Shown here: one piece after another, positions 4,270 to 16,372 of the stretch | How positions within the stretch are numbered: position 1 is the stretch's first letter | Layout: each line of letters opens with the position of its first letter | Virus record (IMG/VR): IMGVR_UViG_3300027971_000171 | Coordinates: 1 to 29,288 of that record | Source of the DNA: a virus | Length of the DNA: 29,288 nucleotides | Strand: one strand, 5' to 3' | Program-made: the position numbers and the translations under genes | The notes under the pieces: model-generated | What the model saw: the letters and a program-made list of their open reading frames with translations, nothing else | Database searches by the model: none | What the model was told of the DNA's origin: nothing

Positions 4270-4298
4270 TTGACAACAAATCGAAGGTGTGCTACAAT
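4270..4298 (+). promoter_or_regulatory. Sigma70-type promoter for the 4329-7483 operon
   Basis: A perfect -35 hexamer TTGACA (4270-4275) is followed, after exactly 17 bp, by TACAAT (4293-4298, five of six matches to TATAAT). Transcription would start near 4305, leaving a short leader with a GGAG ribosome site (4319-4322) before the ATG at 4329. This is a host-polymerase promoter and implies immediate-early expression. It is divergent from the late motif at 4230-4237. Confidence 0.85.
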
Positions 4299-4328: not shown

Positions 4329-5498
4329 ATGGCTCGCAAGCAATCAGATGACCATTTTATCAAAGCACTAGACCCACGGGACGCAGACACAAAGTATTTT
4401 GGGTCTGAACCATCGTTCCCCACGCAACCCGAAGGTTCTGAGCGAAATGTGGCTTTGGCAAATGGGTTCACTTGGTATCATCGTTTTTATGGCAAAAAAG
4501 AAGCTAAAGAACTATTGTGCCAATATTTGGAATTCAGCAATCGCACCAATGACGCAAAAAACCTGCGTAAACTAAATGATTCAGAATTCATGCTAACACT
4601 TTGTTGGTTGGCACGTATGAAATTGCGTGGTTTGGTATTGACCGATGCTGAAGAAGCAACATTAGAAAATGAAATTGCCCGATTAGTGCAAGCACTTGCT
4701 AAACCCGAAGTACGTGAAAGTACAACCGGTAAGGTCGCAAAAGTTGTAGTTGAAGTTGCACGTCCCAATATTCAAGAAATCATGCGTGAAAAGGCAAGAG
4801 AAGCCGCCGGTGAACTTGAAGGAGTGTTTGATGATTATTACAATACTGGAAAAACAAATTCTAAAGTTGTTGATGTACTTGTTGGCTTTAATGTTATGCC
4901 ACAACACATTCCATTGATTGTTGATATTTGGAAAAAGAAACAAGCAGAGTTTGAAGAATTAGTAGATACAAAGGATAGTGAACTAAAGGAGGCTTATCAT
5001 AATTTAGGTAAGATTCAATTACGCAACATTCTTAAATTCATTGAACAAGTACTAAGTGACCTTAATAGCTATATTAGCATTAAGAAAGCTAACAAGGCTC
5101 CTCGCAAAAAGAAAGCAGTACCTGTAGAAAAAATTGTTGCTAAACTTAAATACTTGAAAGTGTTTAAAGATGCTACTACTAAGTTAGATTTGATTAGTGT
5201 GCATCCAACTAAGTTGCATGGTGCAAGCGAGGCTTGGGTTTACGATACTGCAAAACGTAAACTACATCACTATGTTGCCGATGAATACACAAAAACCTTT
5301 CAAATTAAAGGTAACACACTATTAGGATTTGATTCTACAAATAGTGAAATGAAAACATTACGTAAGCCCGGTGAGCAAATCAAAGAAGTAATGGGTAGTA
5401 AGCCCGCGGCACGTAAGTATTTTAAAGAAATTAAAGCAGTATCAGCAGTACCTAATGGTCGATTTAATGAGAACATGATTATTTTGAAAGCGTTTTAA
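4329..5498 (+). CDS. Conserved-looking phage protein of unknown function, probably early
   Basis: This 389-aa soluble protein is the first gene of the sigma70-driven operon, with GGAG 6 nt before the ATG. It is Lys-rich (several KK and RKKK clusters, such as residues 259-263) and mostly helical by pattern. Residues about 40-130 are a charged helical region (FYGKKEAKELLCQYLEFSN, then WLARMKLRGL). Residues about 205-260 look coiled-coil-like. The C-terminal 120 residues are more beta-like (HPTKLHGASEAWVYDTAKRK, HYVADEYTKTFQIKGNTLLG) and end in NENMIILKAF. No nuclease, kinase or polymerase motif is visible. The basic character and early promoter would suit a nucleic-acid- or host-binding role, but that is speculation. 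I do not recognise the family. Confidence 0.7.
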   Translation: MARKQSDDHFIKALDPRDADTKYFGSEPSFPTQPEGSERNVALANGFTWYHRFYGKKEAKELLCQYLEFSNRTNDAKNLRKLNDSEFMLTLCWLARMKLRGLVLTDAEEATLENEIARLVQALAKPEVRESTTGKVAKVVVEVARPNIQEIMREKAREAAGELEGVFDDYYNTGKTNSKVVDVLVGFNVMPQHIPLIVDIWKKKQAEFEELVDTKDSELKEAYHNLGKIQLRNILKFIEQVLSDLNSYISIKKANKAPRKKKAVPVEKIVAKLKYLKVFKDATTKLDLISVHPTKLHGASEAWVYDTAKRKLHHYVADEYTKTFQIKGNTLLGFDSTNSEMKTLRKPGEQIKEVMGSKPAARKYFKEIKAVSAVPNGRFNENMIILKAF

Positions 5499-5499
5499 A

Positions 5500-5679
5500 A
5501 TGGACACTCACGACCGAATGACAGAACTAATGGTACTAATTGACAATTCAATTAAGTTAACTGACGATAGGAATGAAATGCTAATGCTAGCATGTGCAAT
5601 GTTACAGCGTACAAAGGAAATCTTTGACGCTACATTAGGTAAAGAAGGTAGAAAAGAAATGTTTAAGGATTTAGTATGA
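5500..5679 (+). CDS. Small acidic/helical protein of unknown function
   Basis: This 59-aa ORF (MDTHDRMTELMVLIDNSIKL..., ending MFKDLV) starts 1 nt after the previous stop, and its TGA overlaps the next ATG (ATGA). It is Met-, Leu- and Asp-rich and looks wholly alpha-helical with no Cys or membrane segment. The tight packing on both sides in a run of same-strand genes is the main evidence that it is real. The function is unknown; small helical proteins at this position are often early host-takeover factors, but nothing in the sequence proves it. Confidence 0.65.
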   Translation: MDTHDRMTELMVLIDNSIKLTDDRNEMLMLACAMLQRTKEIFDATLGKEGRKEMFKDLV

Positions 5680-5852
5680 AAGATAAAATTATTAATTGGG
5701 TTACAGTAAACCGTAAAAAAATTGCATATACTGTTGCAGGACTTAACATCCTAAGTGGATTAAGTCTATTGTCTACTGGGCAAAATGCTAATGGTTGGGC
5801 ACAGATTTTTCTAGGAAGCATTATTGCACTTGATGCATCAACAATGCCATGA
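5676..5852 (+). CDS. Small membrane protein (two predicted membrane segments)
   Basis: The 58-aa protein begins MKDKIINWVTVNRKKIAYTV. It has a hydrophobic stretch at about residues 16-35 (IAYTVAGLNILSGLSLLSTG) and a second at about 40-53 (GWAQIFLGSIIALDA), joined by a short polar turn (QNANG). This is a helical hairpin for the inner membrane, with the basic N-terminus probably cytoplasmic. It overlaps its neighbours by 4 nt on each side (ATGA junctions), as expected for a translationally coupled operon. It could be an early membrane-modifying or superinfection-immunity protein; a holin role is less likely given its place in an early operon. The family is not recognised. Confidence 0.6.
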   Translation: MKDKIINWVTVNRKKIAYTVAGLNILSGLSLLSTGQNANGWAQIFLGSIIALDASTMP

Positions 5853-6469
5853 AACTTGACATAGACAAATACAACAGGATAGTTGTATTTGGTTCAAGTG
5901 ACACATATGGGGCTCATCTAGTAGATTGCGATCCTGATACTCAGACTGAAATACGGCCCAGTGAGTATGCTTGGCCAAATATTTTAGGTGAAAAATTTAT
6001 TAAGCCGGTAAAAAATCTTGCCACGCCCGGTGCATCTAATAGGGAAATATTATTATCAATTTTAACAAGTGACATTTGTGAAACGGACCTAGTATTAGTA
6101 TGCTGGTCTTTTGTTAACAGGACCTATATTGTAGATGATACACAATCATTGATTAGGATTTATCCACATTTAAAGACTAGTGAAGCTGAACAGTTTTATA
6201 GATTGTACGATATCAATAATTTAGTATATAATACCTTTTTAGATATTTCACATGCAAATTTATTCATCTTAAATAACAAATGCAGTGTTTATAATTTTTA
6301 CACAGACCCGTTACTAAACATGTATAACAACCCTGTGCAAATAAGCAACCCTTTACTTTATATGAATAAGGTCAATTTGACAATTGATAGGGCAACAGAT
6401 AATAAACATCCGGGATTAAAATCACATGTAAACATTGCAAATTGGGTGTATAATATATTAGATGAGTAA
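5849..6469 (+). CDS. SGNH/GDSL-like hydrolase (first of a tandem pair)
   Basis: The 206-aa protein has an SGNH-type layout. A first strand leads to FGSSDTYGAHL (residues 14-24), with Ser17 in the position of the GDS serine. Block II-like NLATPGASN follows near residue 58-66. A hydrophobic strand LVLVCWSF precedes the middle region, and DNKH (184-187) provides the C-terminal Asp-x-x-His. SGNH enzymes remove acyl groups from sugars, lipids or peptidoglycan. It lies in the early operon, overlaps the next gene by 8 nt and shares several positions with it (AW.N near residue 43, NL...G.S), indicating an old duplication. GSSD rather than GDS is unusual, so activity is uncertain. There is no signal peptide, so the product is probably cytoplasmic or virion-bound. 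Confidence 0.65.
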   Translation: MKLDIDKYNRIVVFGSSDTYGAHLVDCDPDTQTEIRPSEYAWPNILGEKFIKPVKNLATPGASNREILLSILTSDICETDLVLVCWSFVNRTYIVDDTQSLIRIYPHLKTSEAEQFYRLYDINNLVYNTFLDISHANLFILNNKCSVYNFYTDPLLNMYNNPVQISNPLLYMNKVNLTIDRATDNKHPGLKSHVNIANWVYNILDE

Positions 6470-7034
6470 AAAAATATTGATTTGCGGAGATAGTTTTTCG
6501 GCACCGTGTACCGATGATTTTGCTTGGACCAATTTGATTAAACAAGATTTTAAAGTAACCAATTTGTCTCAGCGGGGATGTAGCGAGTATAAAATATACA
6601 AACAATTATTGTCACAGGACATTCGCAAGTACGATTATATTATTGTTTCTCACACAAGTCCCTATAGATTACATACAACAGAAAATCCCATTCACATCAA
6701 TAACCAATCACACACAGAATCTTGTTTCATTTACAATGACGTAAAAGAACATGCTAATACCAATGAAGAACTTGTTCCATTAGTTAATTTTTTTGAAAAG
6801 TATTTTGATTTAGAATATGCAGAGCATATTCATAATTTAATCCTAAAAGATATAGAAAAACTATGCCCTAACAATACATTACATTTATCACATTTAGAAT
6901 GGAAAAATTTATATAGATTTTCAAATCATATAGATTTCAATAATGTTTTTCTAAACCATAGAGGTATAGCAAATCATTATGACAATGAAGGTAACAAAGT
7001 AGTTTTTAACACAATTAAAGAGAGATTATCATGA
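6462..7034 (+). CDS. SGNH/GDSL-like hydrolase (second of a tandem pair)
   Basis: The 190-aa protein opens with a strand and the classic ICGDSFS motif (residues 7-13, nucleophile Ser11). FAWTNLI, then VTNLSQRGCSEYKI (block II-like Gly/Ser), the strand YDYIIVSHTSPYR and a C-terminal NHYDNEGN follow; His172 is the probable catalytic base. An Asp three residues before the His is not seen, so the C-terminal dyad differs from the canonical DxxH. Spacing of the FAW and NLS...G motifs matches the upstream gene, supporting paralogy. The gene overlaps its neighbours at both ends (8 nt and 4 nt). The substrate is unknown; acetylated or acylated host surface sugar is a reasonable guess for a phage. Confidence 0.65.
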   Translation: MSKKILICGDSFSAPCTDDFAWTNLIKQDFKVTNLSQRGCSEYKIYKQLLSQDIRKYDYIIVSHTSPYRLHTTENPIHINNQSHTESCFIYNDVKEHANTNEELVPLVNFFEKYFDLEYAEHIHNLILKDIEKLCPNNTLHLSHLEWKNLYRFSNHIDFNNVFLNHRGIANHYDNEGNKVVFNTIKERLS

Positions 7035-7483
7035 CACAATCAATAGATTTAAACAAATATCAAAAATTCGTAGAGGCCGTTACTAGTCAACCTAGTAATG
7101 ACTTAACTACTTTCATAGATACCTGTGATAGACTTGACGCTAACTATGAATTAGATTTAGCCGACAATCAAATGAAACATGGACCTGATGTTAACATTCC
7201 TTTGTTAATTACAGCGTGTTTTGGATTAGCCGCAGAAAGTGGCGAGTTTATTGAAGTGCCCAAGAAAATACTTTTTCAAGGAAAAGCACTTAATGACGAA
7301 GCCGTTTTTCATATGAAGCGAGAACTAGGTGATGTTATGTGGTATTGGATTAATGCATGTAGGGCATTGAACCTAGACCCCAATGAAGTAATTGCTGAGA
7401 ATATTCGCAAGCTAGAGTCACGATATCCCGGTGGAAAGTTTGACGCATTTTACAGCGAGAACCGCAAAGACGGCGATTTGTAA
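7031..7483 (+). CDS. mazG: MazG-like nucleotide pyrophosphohydrolase
   Basis: The 150-aa protein carries the all-alpha NTP-pyrophosphohydrolase signature: E69-S-G-E72 (GLAAESGEFIE) and, 26 residues on, E98-L-G-D101 (RELGDVMWYW). This is the ExxE...ExxD Mg2+ site of the MazG/dUTPase-2 superfamily. Family enzymes convert (d)NTPs to monophosphates and pyrophosphate; in cyanophages MazG prefers dGTP/dCTP. It is a single-domain form, with a family-typical KLESRYPGGKFDAFYSENR tail. It is the last gene of the early operon, overlapping the SGNH gene by 4 nt, with an AAGAGAG ribosome site. It would supply dNMPs or adjust nucleotide pools together with the dNMP kinase and NUDIX protein nearby. Confidence 0.9.
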   Translation: MTQSIDLNKYQKFVEAVTSQPSNDLTTFIDTCDRLDANYELDLADNQMKHGPDVNIPLLITACFGLAAESGEFIEVPKKILFQGKALNDEAVFHMKRELGDVMWYWINACRALNLDPNEVIAENIRKLESRYPGGKFDAFYSENRKDGDL

Positions 7484-7490
7484 AAGCAAT

Positions 7491-7523
7491 ATGTTCTTAG
7501 ATAAATACAATATCTAGGAACAT
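7491..7523 (+). promoter_or_regulatory. Late-type promoter inside a hairpin that hides the gp13 ribosome site
   Basis: ATGTTCTTAGATA (7491-7503) pairs with TATCTAGGAACAT (7511-7523) around a 7-nt loop: 13 consecutive pairs, one of them G-U. The late-type octamer GATAAATA occupies 7500-7507 and the ribosome site TAGGAA lies in the right arm, 2 nt before the ATG at 7526. RNA read through from the early operon would fold and hide the site. RNA starting just after the octamer would lack the left arm and leave it free. This is the known arrangement of T4 genes e and soc. Confidence 0.75.
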
Positions 7524-7525
7524 AT

Positions 7526-8323
7526 ATGTCAACATCACCAATAGCTAACCCACTATCAACTCCTTCTGGTTTAACACTAGATGAGTTAAAATCAGCATTA
7601 TTTAACAATGTAGCCTATCGTTTGGGCCAGGGTATCATTGACCTAGAGTTAGATCCTCAGCATTATGAAGCCGCATATAACTACGCTATTAAAGTTTATC
7701 GTCAAAGGGCACAAGCGGCAACTGAAGAAGCATACACATTAATGACGGTAGAGAAAAATGTAGATACATATACACTACCACAACAATTTATTAATGTAAG
7801 AAATATTTTTCGCAGGACAATTGGATTAGAAACAGGTCCAGGAGCTACGTCTTTTGATCCTTTCTCTAGCGCAATTTTAAACACGTACTTATTAAATTAT
7901 AATTATGCAGGTGGTATGGCAACATACGATTTTTATGCAGGTTATGTTAAACTGGCTGCACGTATGTTTGGTGGTTATGTAACTTATACTTTTAACCCTG
8001 TAACAAAAGTGTTACGAGTAGTGCGTGACTTCAAAGGTACCGGTGAACAGATATTGATTTGGGCTGACGTACAAAAGACCGAAGAAGTTTTATTACAAGA
8101 TCCGGGAGCAGGTGTATGGATTGGGGACTTTATCTTGGCTAATCTTAAATTAATTATTGGTGAAGCACGTGAGAAGTTTGGGACTATTGCTGGCCCGGGC
8201 GGAGGTACTAGCTTAAATGGTACGGCTATGAAGGCTGAGGGTAAAGCCGCAATGGAGCAATTGCTTGATGAATTAAAACGCTATGTGGATTACAGTCAAC
8301 CATTAACTTGGGTACAAGGTTAA
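7526..8323 (+). CDS. 13: Neck protein, gp13-like
   Basis: T4 gp13 binds the portal and, with gp14, closes the head after packaging. This 265-aa protein begins with a short proline-rich stretch (ANPLSTPSGLTLDEL) and then a helical core with YRLGQGIIDLELDPQHYEAA (residues 32-51), a pattern of gp13-type head-tail connectors. A YTLPQQF strand at about 79, VRNIFRRTIG and a strand-rich middle (GGYVTYTFNPVTKVLRVVRD) follow. The C-terminal helices (IIGEAREKFGTIAGPGGG, ALNGT-type MKAEGKAAMEQLLDELKR) end in SQPLTWVQG. The T4 protein is 309 aa. It stands alone between the early operon and a sigma70 promoter, away from gp14/gp15 on the other strand. It could instead be another connector, so confidence is moderate. 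Confidence 0.65.
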   Translation: MSTSPIANPLSTPSGLTLDELKSALFNNVAYRLGQGIIDLELDPQHYEAAYNYAIKVYRQRAQAATEEAYTLMTVEKNVDTYTLPQQFINVRNIFRRTIGLETGPGATSFDPFSSAILNTYLLNYNYAGGMATYDFYAGYVKLAARMFGGYVTYTFNPVTKVLRVVRDFKGTGEQILIWADVQKTEEVLLQDPGAGVWIGDFILANLKLIIGEAREKFGTIAGPGGGTSLNGTAMKAEGKAAMEQLLDELKRYVDYSQPLTWVQG

Positions 8324-8332
8324 CCTAATCTC

Positions 8333-8361
8333 TTTACTTTTTCATACTCTTGTAATATAAT
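8333..8361 (+). promoter_or_regulatory. Sigma70-type promoter for dNMP kinase
   Basis: TTTACT (8333-8338, four of six matches to TTGACA) is followed after 17 bp by a perfect TATAAT (8356-8361). Transcription near 8368 leaves a short leader with AGGAG (8375-8379), 7 nt before the ATG at 8387. It indicates early, host-type transcription independent of the late gp13 unit. Confidence 0.8.
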
Positions 8362-8386
8362 CACATTATGTTACAGGAGTTTTTTT

Positions 8387-9046
8387 ATGATTATTGGAAT
8401 CACAGGTCTAATCGGTTCGGGCAAAGACACAATTGCTGACTATCTTACAACGTATCATGGTTTTAAACGAATTAGTTTTGCGGCAAGTCTTAAAGATGCA
8501 GTAGCACATGTCTTTGGTTGGGAACGTGAGTTGCTAGAAGGCACTACAAAAACAAGTAGAGAGTGGCGAGAGCAAGTAGATGTTTGGTGGAGTAATCGTT
8601 TAGGTATGGAAATTACTCCTAGATGGGTGTTACAATATTGGGGTACTGAAGTTTGCCGCAAAGGCTTCCATGAAGATATTTGGGTAGCTAGTTTAGAACA
8701 TAAATTACTTTCAGCTAAAGATGATATTGTTATTACTGATTGTAGATTTCTCAACGAGGTCAATGCTATTAAAATGGCAGGCGGTACTACAATACGAGTT
8801 TTTAGGGGTGAAAACCCTGTATGGTACGAATCAGCAGTAGCATTCAACAAAGGTCCAAATGGCAATATGAATTGGGCCGTGAGTAGAAAAATGCTTGAAG
8901 ACAATAATGTTCATGCAAGTGAATACTCAAGTGTTGGAATTGATTACGACTATTATGTAGACAATAACGGTACTATCGATGAGTTACACAATACTATTCA
9001 ACGTATTATTAATAATCAATCTCAAGGTCACCACGCTTCCAGTTAA
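8387..9046 (+). CDS. 1: Deoxynucleoside monophosphate kinase (T4 gp1-like)
   Basis: The 219-aa protein phosphorylates dNMPs to dNDPs for DNA replication. The Walker A P-loop GLIGSGKDT lies at residues 7-15, followed by ADYLTTYHGF and KRISFAASLKDAVAHVFGWE, which match the T4 gp1 family, including the YWGTEVCR and DCRFLNEV blocks (the latter a Walker B/lid region near residues 118-128). The length is near the 241 aa of T4 gp1. It pairs functionally with MazG upstream: MazG yields dNMPs and this enzyme recharges them. It has its own sigma70 promoter and an AGGAG site. Its last 38 bp overlap the opposing HNH-like gene. Confidence 0.9.
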   Translation: MIIGITGLIGSGKDTIADYLTTYHGFKRISFAASLKDAVAHVFGWERELLEGTTKTSREWREQVDVWWSNRLGMEITPRWVLQYWGTEVCRKGFHEDIWVASLEHKLLSAKDDIVITDCRFLNEVNAIKMAGGTTIRVFRGENPVWYESAVAFNKGPNGNMNWAVSRKMLEDNNVHASEYSSVGIDYDYYVDNNGTIDELHNTIQRIINNQSQGHHASS

Positions 9047-15442: not shown

Positions 15443-15880
15443 ATGGGTAATTGGGCACAAGGTATCTTCACCCCTAAAAACCCGCAAAAATATGTAGGGA
15501 AACATAAACCTAAATATAGGTCAGGATGGGAACTTACATTCATGACTTTTTGTGATACGCATAACAATGTTACTCATTGGGCTAGCGAAGCATTATCAAT
15601 ACCCTATCGTCATCCATTAGATGGTAAAGTACATAATTATATTCCTGATTTTTTTGTAGTCTACCAAAATAAATATGGCAAATCAATAGCTGAAGTTGTT
15701 GAAATAAAACCAAAAAAACAAAGCCTTATTGAAAGTCGTGGCGCAAGTGCAAAAGACAAAATGGTTGTTGCAATTAATCATGCTAAGTGGCAAGCAGCCA
15801 TGGCATATTGCAAGGCACAGGGTTATACCTTTAGAGTAATCACTGAGGATGACCTTTTTCGAAACGGTTCACGAAAGTAA
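15443..15880 (+). CDS. 4: Head-completion nuclease, gp4-like
   Basis: T4 gp4 is needed late in head completion before the tail joins. This 145-aa protein opens FTPKNPQKYVGKHKPKYRSG, the standard gp4 start (TPKNPxKYVG...YRSxWE). The PD-(D/E)xK-type site is visible: E30 in the SGWEL helix, D69 in IPDFFVVY, and E87-I-K89 in VVEIKPKKQ. This fold is shared with TnsA-type endonucleases. A KWQAAMAYCKAQGYTFRVIT end follows, typical of the family. It has no evident Shine-Dalgarno and starts 2 nt after the previous stop, so it is probably coupled. Its TAA overlaps the hairpin before the small-terminase gene. Confidence 0.9.
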   Translation: MGNWAQGIFTPKNPQKYVGKHKPKYRSGWELTFMTFCDTHNNVTHWASEALSIPYRHPLDGKVHNYIPDFFVVYQNKYGKSIAEVVEIKPKKQSLIESRGASAKDKMVVAINHAKWQAAMAYCKAQGYTFRVITEDDLFRNGSRK

Positions 15881-15892
15881 ATAAATACTTTC
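15873..15892 (+). promoter_or_regulatory. Late-type motif inside a 7-bp hairpin at a stop-start junction
   Basis: GAAAGTA (15873-15879) pairs perfectly with TACTTTC (15886-15892) around an AATAAA loop; the ATG at 15893 follows at once. AATAAATA spans 15880-15887, and the gp4 stop codon (15878-15880) lies in the left arm. RNA from this motif would start at or near the ATG without the left arm. No Shine-Dalgarno is visible. Confidence 0.5.
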
Positions 15893-16372
15893 ATGAATAA
15901 AAAATTAGAAGAATTATTTGAATTACCTCAGCATGAGATTGATAATCTAGCTGTTCCTATTCCTGATAACGCAGACTTAGTTATCACAGAAACATTAGAT
16001 AACATTGAAAAGATTGAGAATGCATTACCTCAGGTTCGTGGATTGGACATGGCTGACGGGGAAATGGATGAACTTGCTGGACTAGCAACAAGCAGTTACA
16101 AAGACTTAATGGATTTGGGTATGCAAGTTGATAGTAGATTTGCTAGTGAAATATTTAATAGTGCAAGTAGTATGTTGGGACATGCTATTACTGCTAAAAC
16201 AGCTAAGATAAACAAGAAATTAAAAATGATTGAATTGCAGTTGAAAAAAGCACAACTAGACCAAAAGATAAGCAAAACAGAAGATATCCCAAACACTCCT
16301 TTAGGTGAGGGTAAAACGCTAGACCGTAATGAGTTACTCAAGATCCTCTCCACTAAAACAAATGAAAAATGA
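15893..16372 (+). CDS. 16: Probable small terminase subunit, gp16-like
   Basis: The 159-aa protein (T4 gp16 is 164 aa) is helical and acidic at the N-terminus. A central segment DELAGLATSSYKDLMDLGMQ (about 62-81) leads to SRFASEIFNSASSMLGHAIT. A Lys-rich coiled coil, KINKKLKMIELQLKKAQLDQ (about 104-123), follows. In T4 gp16 the central domain makes the ring that stimulates the large terminase. The size, the helix arrangement and the tail with a short basic coiled coil fit that family, and the phage-like ASSMLGHA...KLKMIELQLKKA layout is what I associate with T4-like small terminases. The large terminase is not in this window, so the call stays moderate. Its TGA overlaps the next late motif. 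Confidence 0.6.
   Translation: MNKKLEELFELPQHEIDNLAVPIPDNADLVITETLDNIEKIENALPQVRGLDMADGEMDELAGLATSSYKDLMDLGMQVDSRFASEIFNSASSMLGHAITAKTAKINKKLKMIELQLKKAQLDQKISKTEDIPNTPLGEGKTLDRNELLKILSTKTNEK

Follow-up and report, generated by a model that had tools for sequence, protein, structure and literature searches.

Gene layout at the gp13 locus

The DNA analysed here, hereafter the window, is a 29,288-base fragment of a T4-like phage, and the features of its gp13 locus are collected in Table 1. The gp13-like gene starts at 7526, 42 nt after the end of the MazG-like gene (7483), which closes an upstream operon on the same strand. Its product has the profile expected of a late (virion) gene: it matches the head-tail adaptor family phrog_211, and mass spectrometry detected its homologue CBB_201 in virions (PMC5259590). 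The close relative G001 encodes a late sigma factor (phrog_12791, E 4.5e-73), and G003 a near-identical protein; this evidence comes from the genomes of relatives, the window itself being a fragment.

The upstream operon, recognised from its layout, is presumed to be early, and a candidate early promoter precedes it, in a region where the number of matches to the early consensus is not above that in shuffles. A terminator scan found no strong terminator-like site before 7526, only weak matches that all lie inside genes; in the initial annotation, the operon (4329-7483) ran up to gp13 without a terminator.

Table 1. Coordinates of features at the gp13 locus; positions refer to the window unless a locus is given
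Feature	Position	Strand	Basis or remark
DNA fragment (window)	29,288 bases		IMG/VR virus record IMGVR_UViG_3300027971_000171, T4-like phage
Candidate early promoter TTGACA-17-TACAAT, TG before -10	4270..4298	+	Best consensus match of the region, 11/12; pattern match only
Upstream operon, six abutting or overlapping genes, presumed early	4329..7483	+	ORF layout; timing inferred
MazG-like pyrophosphohydrolase gene, last of upstream operon	7031..7483	+	Pfam MazG E 2e-8; phrog_229 E 1e-45
Hairpin left arm	7489..7503	+	15-pair stem; only in read-through RNA
Late-promoter octamer GATAAATA	7500..7507	+	Left arm and loop; -13 to -6
Hairpin right arm	7511..7525	+	Holds Shine-Dalgarno; ends at ATG
Predicted late RNA start (+1)	7513	+	Inferred from octamer position
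Shine-Dalgarno AGGAA	7516..7520	+	5 nt before ATG at 7526; sequence
gp13-like neck protein gene (head-tail adaptor Ad2), 265 aa	7526..8323	+	phrog_211 E 9e-24; tblastn to annotated neck proteins
Mirror hairpin, 16 pairs	8346..8380	+	TATAAT 8356-8361 in left arm, AGGAG in right arm, then T run before ATG
Deoxynucleoside monophosphate kinase gene	8387..9046	+	phrog_139 E 2e-50; Pfam DNMK
Copies of ~390-nt RNA	L003:4565-4972; also L077, L168, L176, L143, L151, L156, many of L292-L371		Not in window

Structure of the gp13 hairpin

The hairpin before gp13 has 15 pairs (7489-7503 with 7511-7525), one of them G-U (U7497-G7517), and a 7-nt loop. The initial annotation had paired 7491-7503 with 7511-7523 and placed the late-promoter octamer within the hairpin at 7500-7507; both points hold, with 12 Watson-Crick pairs and U7497-G7517 in that part of a stem that extends to 15 pairs, and with GATAAATA at the octamer position. 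The ribosome site had been put 2 nt before the ATG; the distance is 5 nt, and 2 nt is that of the arm end at 7523. Folding of the junction had been proposed as a check, and the segment 7470-7560 does fold stably (-22.6 kcal/mol, z -6.1, with 0 of 200 shuffles equally stable).

No other stem of at least 13 pairs with a loop of 3-12 nt occurs in the window, and when the whole window was shuffled with its dinucleotides preserved, 7 of 60 shuffles contained such a stem somewhere. The stem alone is thus not astronomically rare, whereas finding it together with a late promoter and a ribosome site is.

Opening energies and calibration on T4

In T4, the late octamer occupies positions -13 to -6 (PMC2988020), and we therefore placed the late RNA start at 7513. 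The cost of freeing the ribosome-binding region (7515-7528) is 14.4-17.7 kcal/mol when the RNA starts at 7300-7480 and drops to 0.8-0.9 kcal/mol when it starts at 7510-7515. When the left arm was shuffled (200 times), the mean opening cost fell from 17.1 to 3.4, with a maximum of 10.2.

We took the early-minus-late opening cost as a score at each NATAAATA or NCTAAATA site with a nearby ORF (ATG or GTG start). The gp13 site, at 17.0 kcal/mol, came first of the seven in the window, the other six scoring 0.1-2.6; the sites covered were those with an ATG at least 18 nt from the octamer start, so that closer ones (e.g. 15069 and 15880) were left out. At 15868-15898, AATAAATA stands in a shorter hairpin that overlaps the ATG of a 159-aa gene at 15893, with no clear ribosome site.

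Applied to T4, the score ranked highest e (14.0), I-TevII (12.6), a second promoter of e (11.2), 26 (10.1), segB (9.9), I-TevI (9.3) and 49 (8.7). The sites of gene e were assigned from the sequence; the identities of I-TevII, 26, segB, I-TevI and 49 were checked. Control by a hairpin over the ribosome site has been reported for e, 49, 26, I-TevI, I-TevII and segB (PMC3014915, PMC2988022). The initial annotation had invoked this logic for T4 e, soc and I-TevI, and both the literature and the energy score bear it out for e and I-TevI, while soc was not recovered by the score (0.3).

Five related genomes were scored, including the contigs G001, G003 and G004, from which loci L024, L061 and L013, respectively, derive. 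gp13 ranked first in three of the five: G001 (14.7, of 42 sites), G004 (14.5, of 19) and GAP32 (17.6, of 43). It was second of 42 in RaK2 (9.3) and seventh of 48 in G003, with a weak score of 4.5.

Several other hairpins were seen in these genomes. A second hairpin with a late promoter inside it precedes a structural-looking gene of 177-181 aa in G001 (113936-), G003 (49281-) and G004 (7902+), with arms that differ among the three. Directly before an ATG, a late leader hairpin with GAAG in its loop has the arms AAGTGTAA/TTACACTT at G001 80889- and G003 11982-, replaced by AAGTGTAT/ATACACTT at G004 44400+. In GAP32 (JN882285.1, 235876) and RaK2 (NC_019526.1, 139442), GATAAATA lies within a long hairpin whose right arm contains GGAG, with a T run as well, and the genes that follow have similar N-termini in both phages.

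The structure of the gp13 hairpin, the nesting of its signals, the opening energies and, as described below, its conservation through compensatory changes make it highly probable that it is a translational timing switch like those of T4 e and I-TevI. RNA reading through from the upstream operon, presumably in early infection, would carry both arms and fold, and the fold would hide the Shine-Dalgarno sequence and most of the gp13 start region, preventing translation. Late RNA, by contrast, is predicted to start near 7513; because this start lies in the right arm, the left arm would be missing and the 13-nt leader open, and gp13 would, judging from the computed accessibility, be translated freely.

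Conservation and covariation among uncultured relatives

Scans with gp13 yielded 160 loci, many of them common to both scans, which were reduced to 74 unique junctions. A first scan with Muenster gp13 as query had yielded two loci only. The score reached at least 6 in 63 of the 74 junctions (median 13.4), and 51 beat all 100 shuffles of their left arm. The octamer GATAAATA is invariant or nearly so among the relatives. At L053, L055-L057, L061, L064-L066 and L079, some 180-250 nt of extra DNA lie between MazG and the gp13 hairpin, and at L061 (G003) part of the left arm has decayed. Against a timing switch speaks that, at L023, L045 and L189, the hairpin is kept behind genes that resemble late structural genes.

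RNAalifold returned no consensus structure for a 48-row alignment of the junctions, in which loop lengths vary and hairpin-less rows are included; for this reason, the pairs of the named structure were counted directly. Changes on both sides were found in 10 of its 15 pairs, and doubly changed cells numbered 78, compared with 47.7 in shuffles. The covariation score was 0.257 (0.07-0.09 for slid partners), and 73.5% of cells were paired (36-51% with slid partners). The compensatory changes in both arms that the initial annotation had proposed to look for in related phages are therefore present.

These data also bear on whether the palindrome is a DNA operator, for instance one through which the late promoter would be autorepressed, as in the case of I-TevI. 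The palindrome does overlap the late promoter; however, the arm sequences vary widely while their complementarity is kept, and G-U is commoner than A-C in the core pairs (columns 14-18), 42 to 6, as expected for pairing in the message strand, a bias that fixed G residues favour. We regard an operator as very improbable indeed.

A different alternative is that the hairpin is mainly an intrinsic terminator of the early operon with a late promoter inside it, the hiding of the ribosome site being a by-product. T runs follow the right arm in L049, L073 and several RaK2-like phages (among them GAP32, BF and XaC1), and the hairpin before the kinase gene downstream carries one too. The window has no T run, though, and only two of the 74 junctions (the same L049 and L073) have at least four T between the ribosome site and the ATG. 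Moreover, no part of the outer helix is better conserved than the pairing of the Shine-Dalgarno sequence (columns 15 and 16, paired in 46 and 47 of the 48 rows), which argues against a mere terminator. We consider this explanation very unlikely. As the main role of the hairpin in the window itself, intrinsic termination was rejected: the core stem is followed by ATATATG, and the terminator scan did not call the site.

A structured RNA before gp13 in some relatives

In 7 of the 74 junctions, gp13 is separated from the upstream genes by a conserved RNA of ~390 nt, and none of the seven reaches a score of 6; among the junctions that lack it, 63 of 67 score at least 6. The consensus fold of the seven sequences has an energy of -72 kcal/mol, with compensatory changes in 29 of 81 pairs. 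A search of Rfam with this RNA gave no match, even at E up to 1, and no tRNA was found in the hairpin-less loci searched. A 17-base motif of the RNA occurs in 94 stretches in IMG/VR, and gp13 is the next gene downstream in 61 of 80 loci; at L307, L314, L323, L353 and L366, copies of the RNA have neither gp13 nor MazG nearby.

Where the RNA is present, 7 of 32 unique junctions score at least 6 (Fisher 3e-13), a raw P that overstates the link between insertion of the RNA and loss of the hairpin because the gp13 tree, with about nine changes of this trait, offers only two well-supported independent pairs. In almost all random pairings these two point the way predicted, their number being too small for significance. 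The initial annotation had held that related phages keeping the promoter without the inverted repeat would speak against the switch. Such relatives do exist, but mostly where the structured RNA stands between the early operon and gp13, an arrangement that agrees with a timing switch and does not refute it.

The replacement of one structure by another, together with the position of a long intergenic stem after MazG, could also be read as the mark of an RNA-processing or stability element at an operon boundary, serving an RNase cut (host or phage) or protecting the upstream 3' end. Such an element would leave unexplained why the octamer and the Shine-Dalgarno sequence stand in opposite arms in relative after relative, and why the arm sequence is free to vary provided that pairing is kept; we therefore give this explanation little credence.

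Cultured RaK2-like jumbo phages

Homologues of gp13 with ~35% identity were found by tblastn in RaK2-like phages. In ten of these (GAP32, Munch, 121Q, RaK2, BF, XbC2, Hallingskeid, CBB, Muenster and XaC1), gp13 is separated from a co-directional upstream operon by a hairpin that has an octamer in its left arm and the Shine-Dalgarno sequence in its right; the scores are 10.5-19.6. Their arm sequences are unrelated to those of the window. The left-arm octamer is TATAAATA in Munch only, and the other phages have the variants CCTAAATA/TCTAAATA; since the late motif published for CBB is ATAAATA (PMC5259590), the CTAAATA variants cannot be taken as established late promoters. Scores are 0.7-6.2 in four phages whose upstream gene runs on the opposite strand and 6.8 in PA5oct, where it is co-directional.

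A mirror-image hairpin before the kinase gene

Directly after gp13, the gene for a deoxynucleoside monophosphate kinase is preceded by a hairpin that mirrors the first (Table 1). Its opening cost is 14.1-14.5 in RNA reading through from upstream and falls to 3.6 when the RNA starts near 8368; 70 of 92 unique kinase junctions score at least 6. Adjacent early and late genes may, on this evidence, be insulated reciprocally, a notion akin to that of PeSLs, which are motifs combining an early promoter with a terminator stem-loop in T4-like phages (Comeau 2014, Arbiol 2010, as cited in PMC4503421). As far as they are described there, PeSLs resemble the gp13 hairpin in joining a promoter to a stem-loop between genes and differ from it in that the latter has a late promoter, a ribosome site in the stem and, in the window, no T run; on the same description, the kinase hairpin comes nearer to a PeSL.

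More tentatively, and at somewhat less than even likelihood, gp13 may sit between two reciprocal switches. The late promoter and its hairpin would silence gp13 in early read-through RNA, and the early-type promoter with its terminator-like hairpin (8346-8380) would silence the kinase in late read-through RNA. The early and late genes interleaved on this strand would in this way be insulated in both directions, and in some relatives the ~390-nt RNA would stand in for the first switch.

Relation to known switches and significance

The arrangement at gp13 matches that of T4 e, 49, 26, I-TevI, I-TevII and segB, with the octamer inside the left arm or beside it, the Shine-Dalgarno sequence in the right arm, a late start inside the hairpin (here a predicted one) and the same energy signature. 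It differs from the T4 cases in its target, a gp13-like neck gene, and in its arm sequences, which are unrelated; several of those cases have been tested in the laboratory, whereas the gp13 switch is predicted from sequence and computed folding. We found no report of hairpin control of gene 13 in the literature searched. The mechanism is known from T4, while gene 13 as its target and the depth of its conservation appear to be new.

As cultured hosts exist (for GAP32, CBB, 121Q and RaK2), the prediction is directly testable, and the energy score provides a simple finder of such switches in any T4-like genome. A timing switch at gp13 would bring to a virion neck gene a device known from only a few genes of T4. 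It would be one kept by compensatory change across a large group of uncultured phages and present, with unrelated sequence, in cultured RaK2-like jumbo phages.
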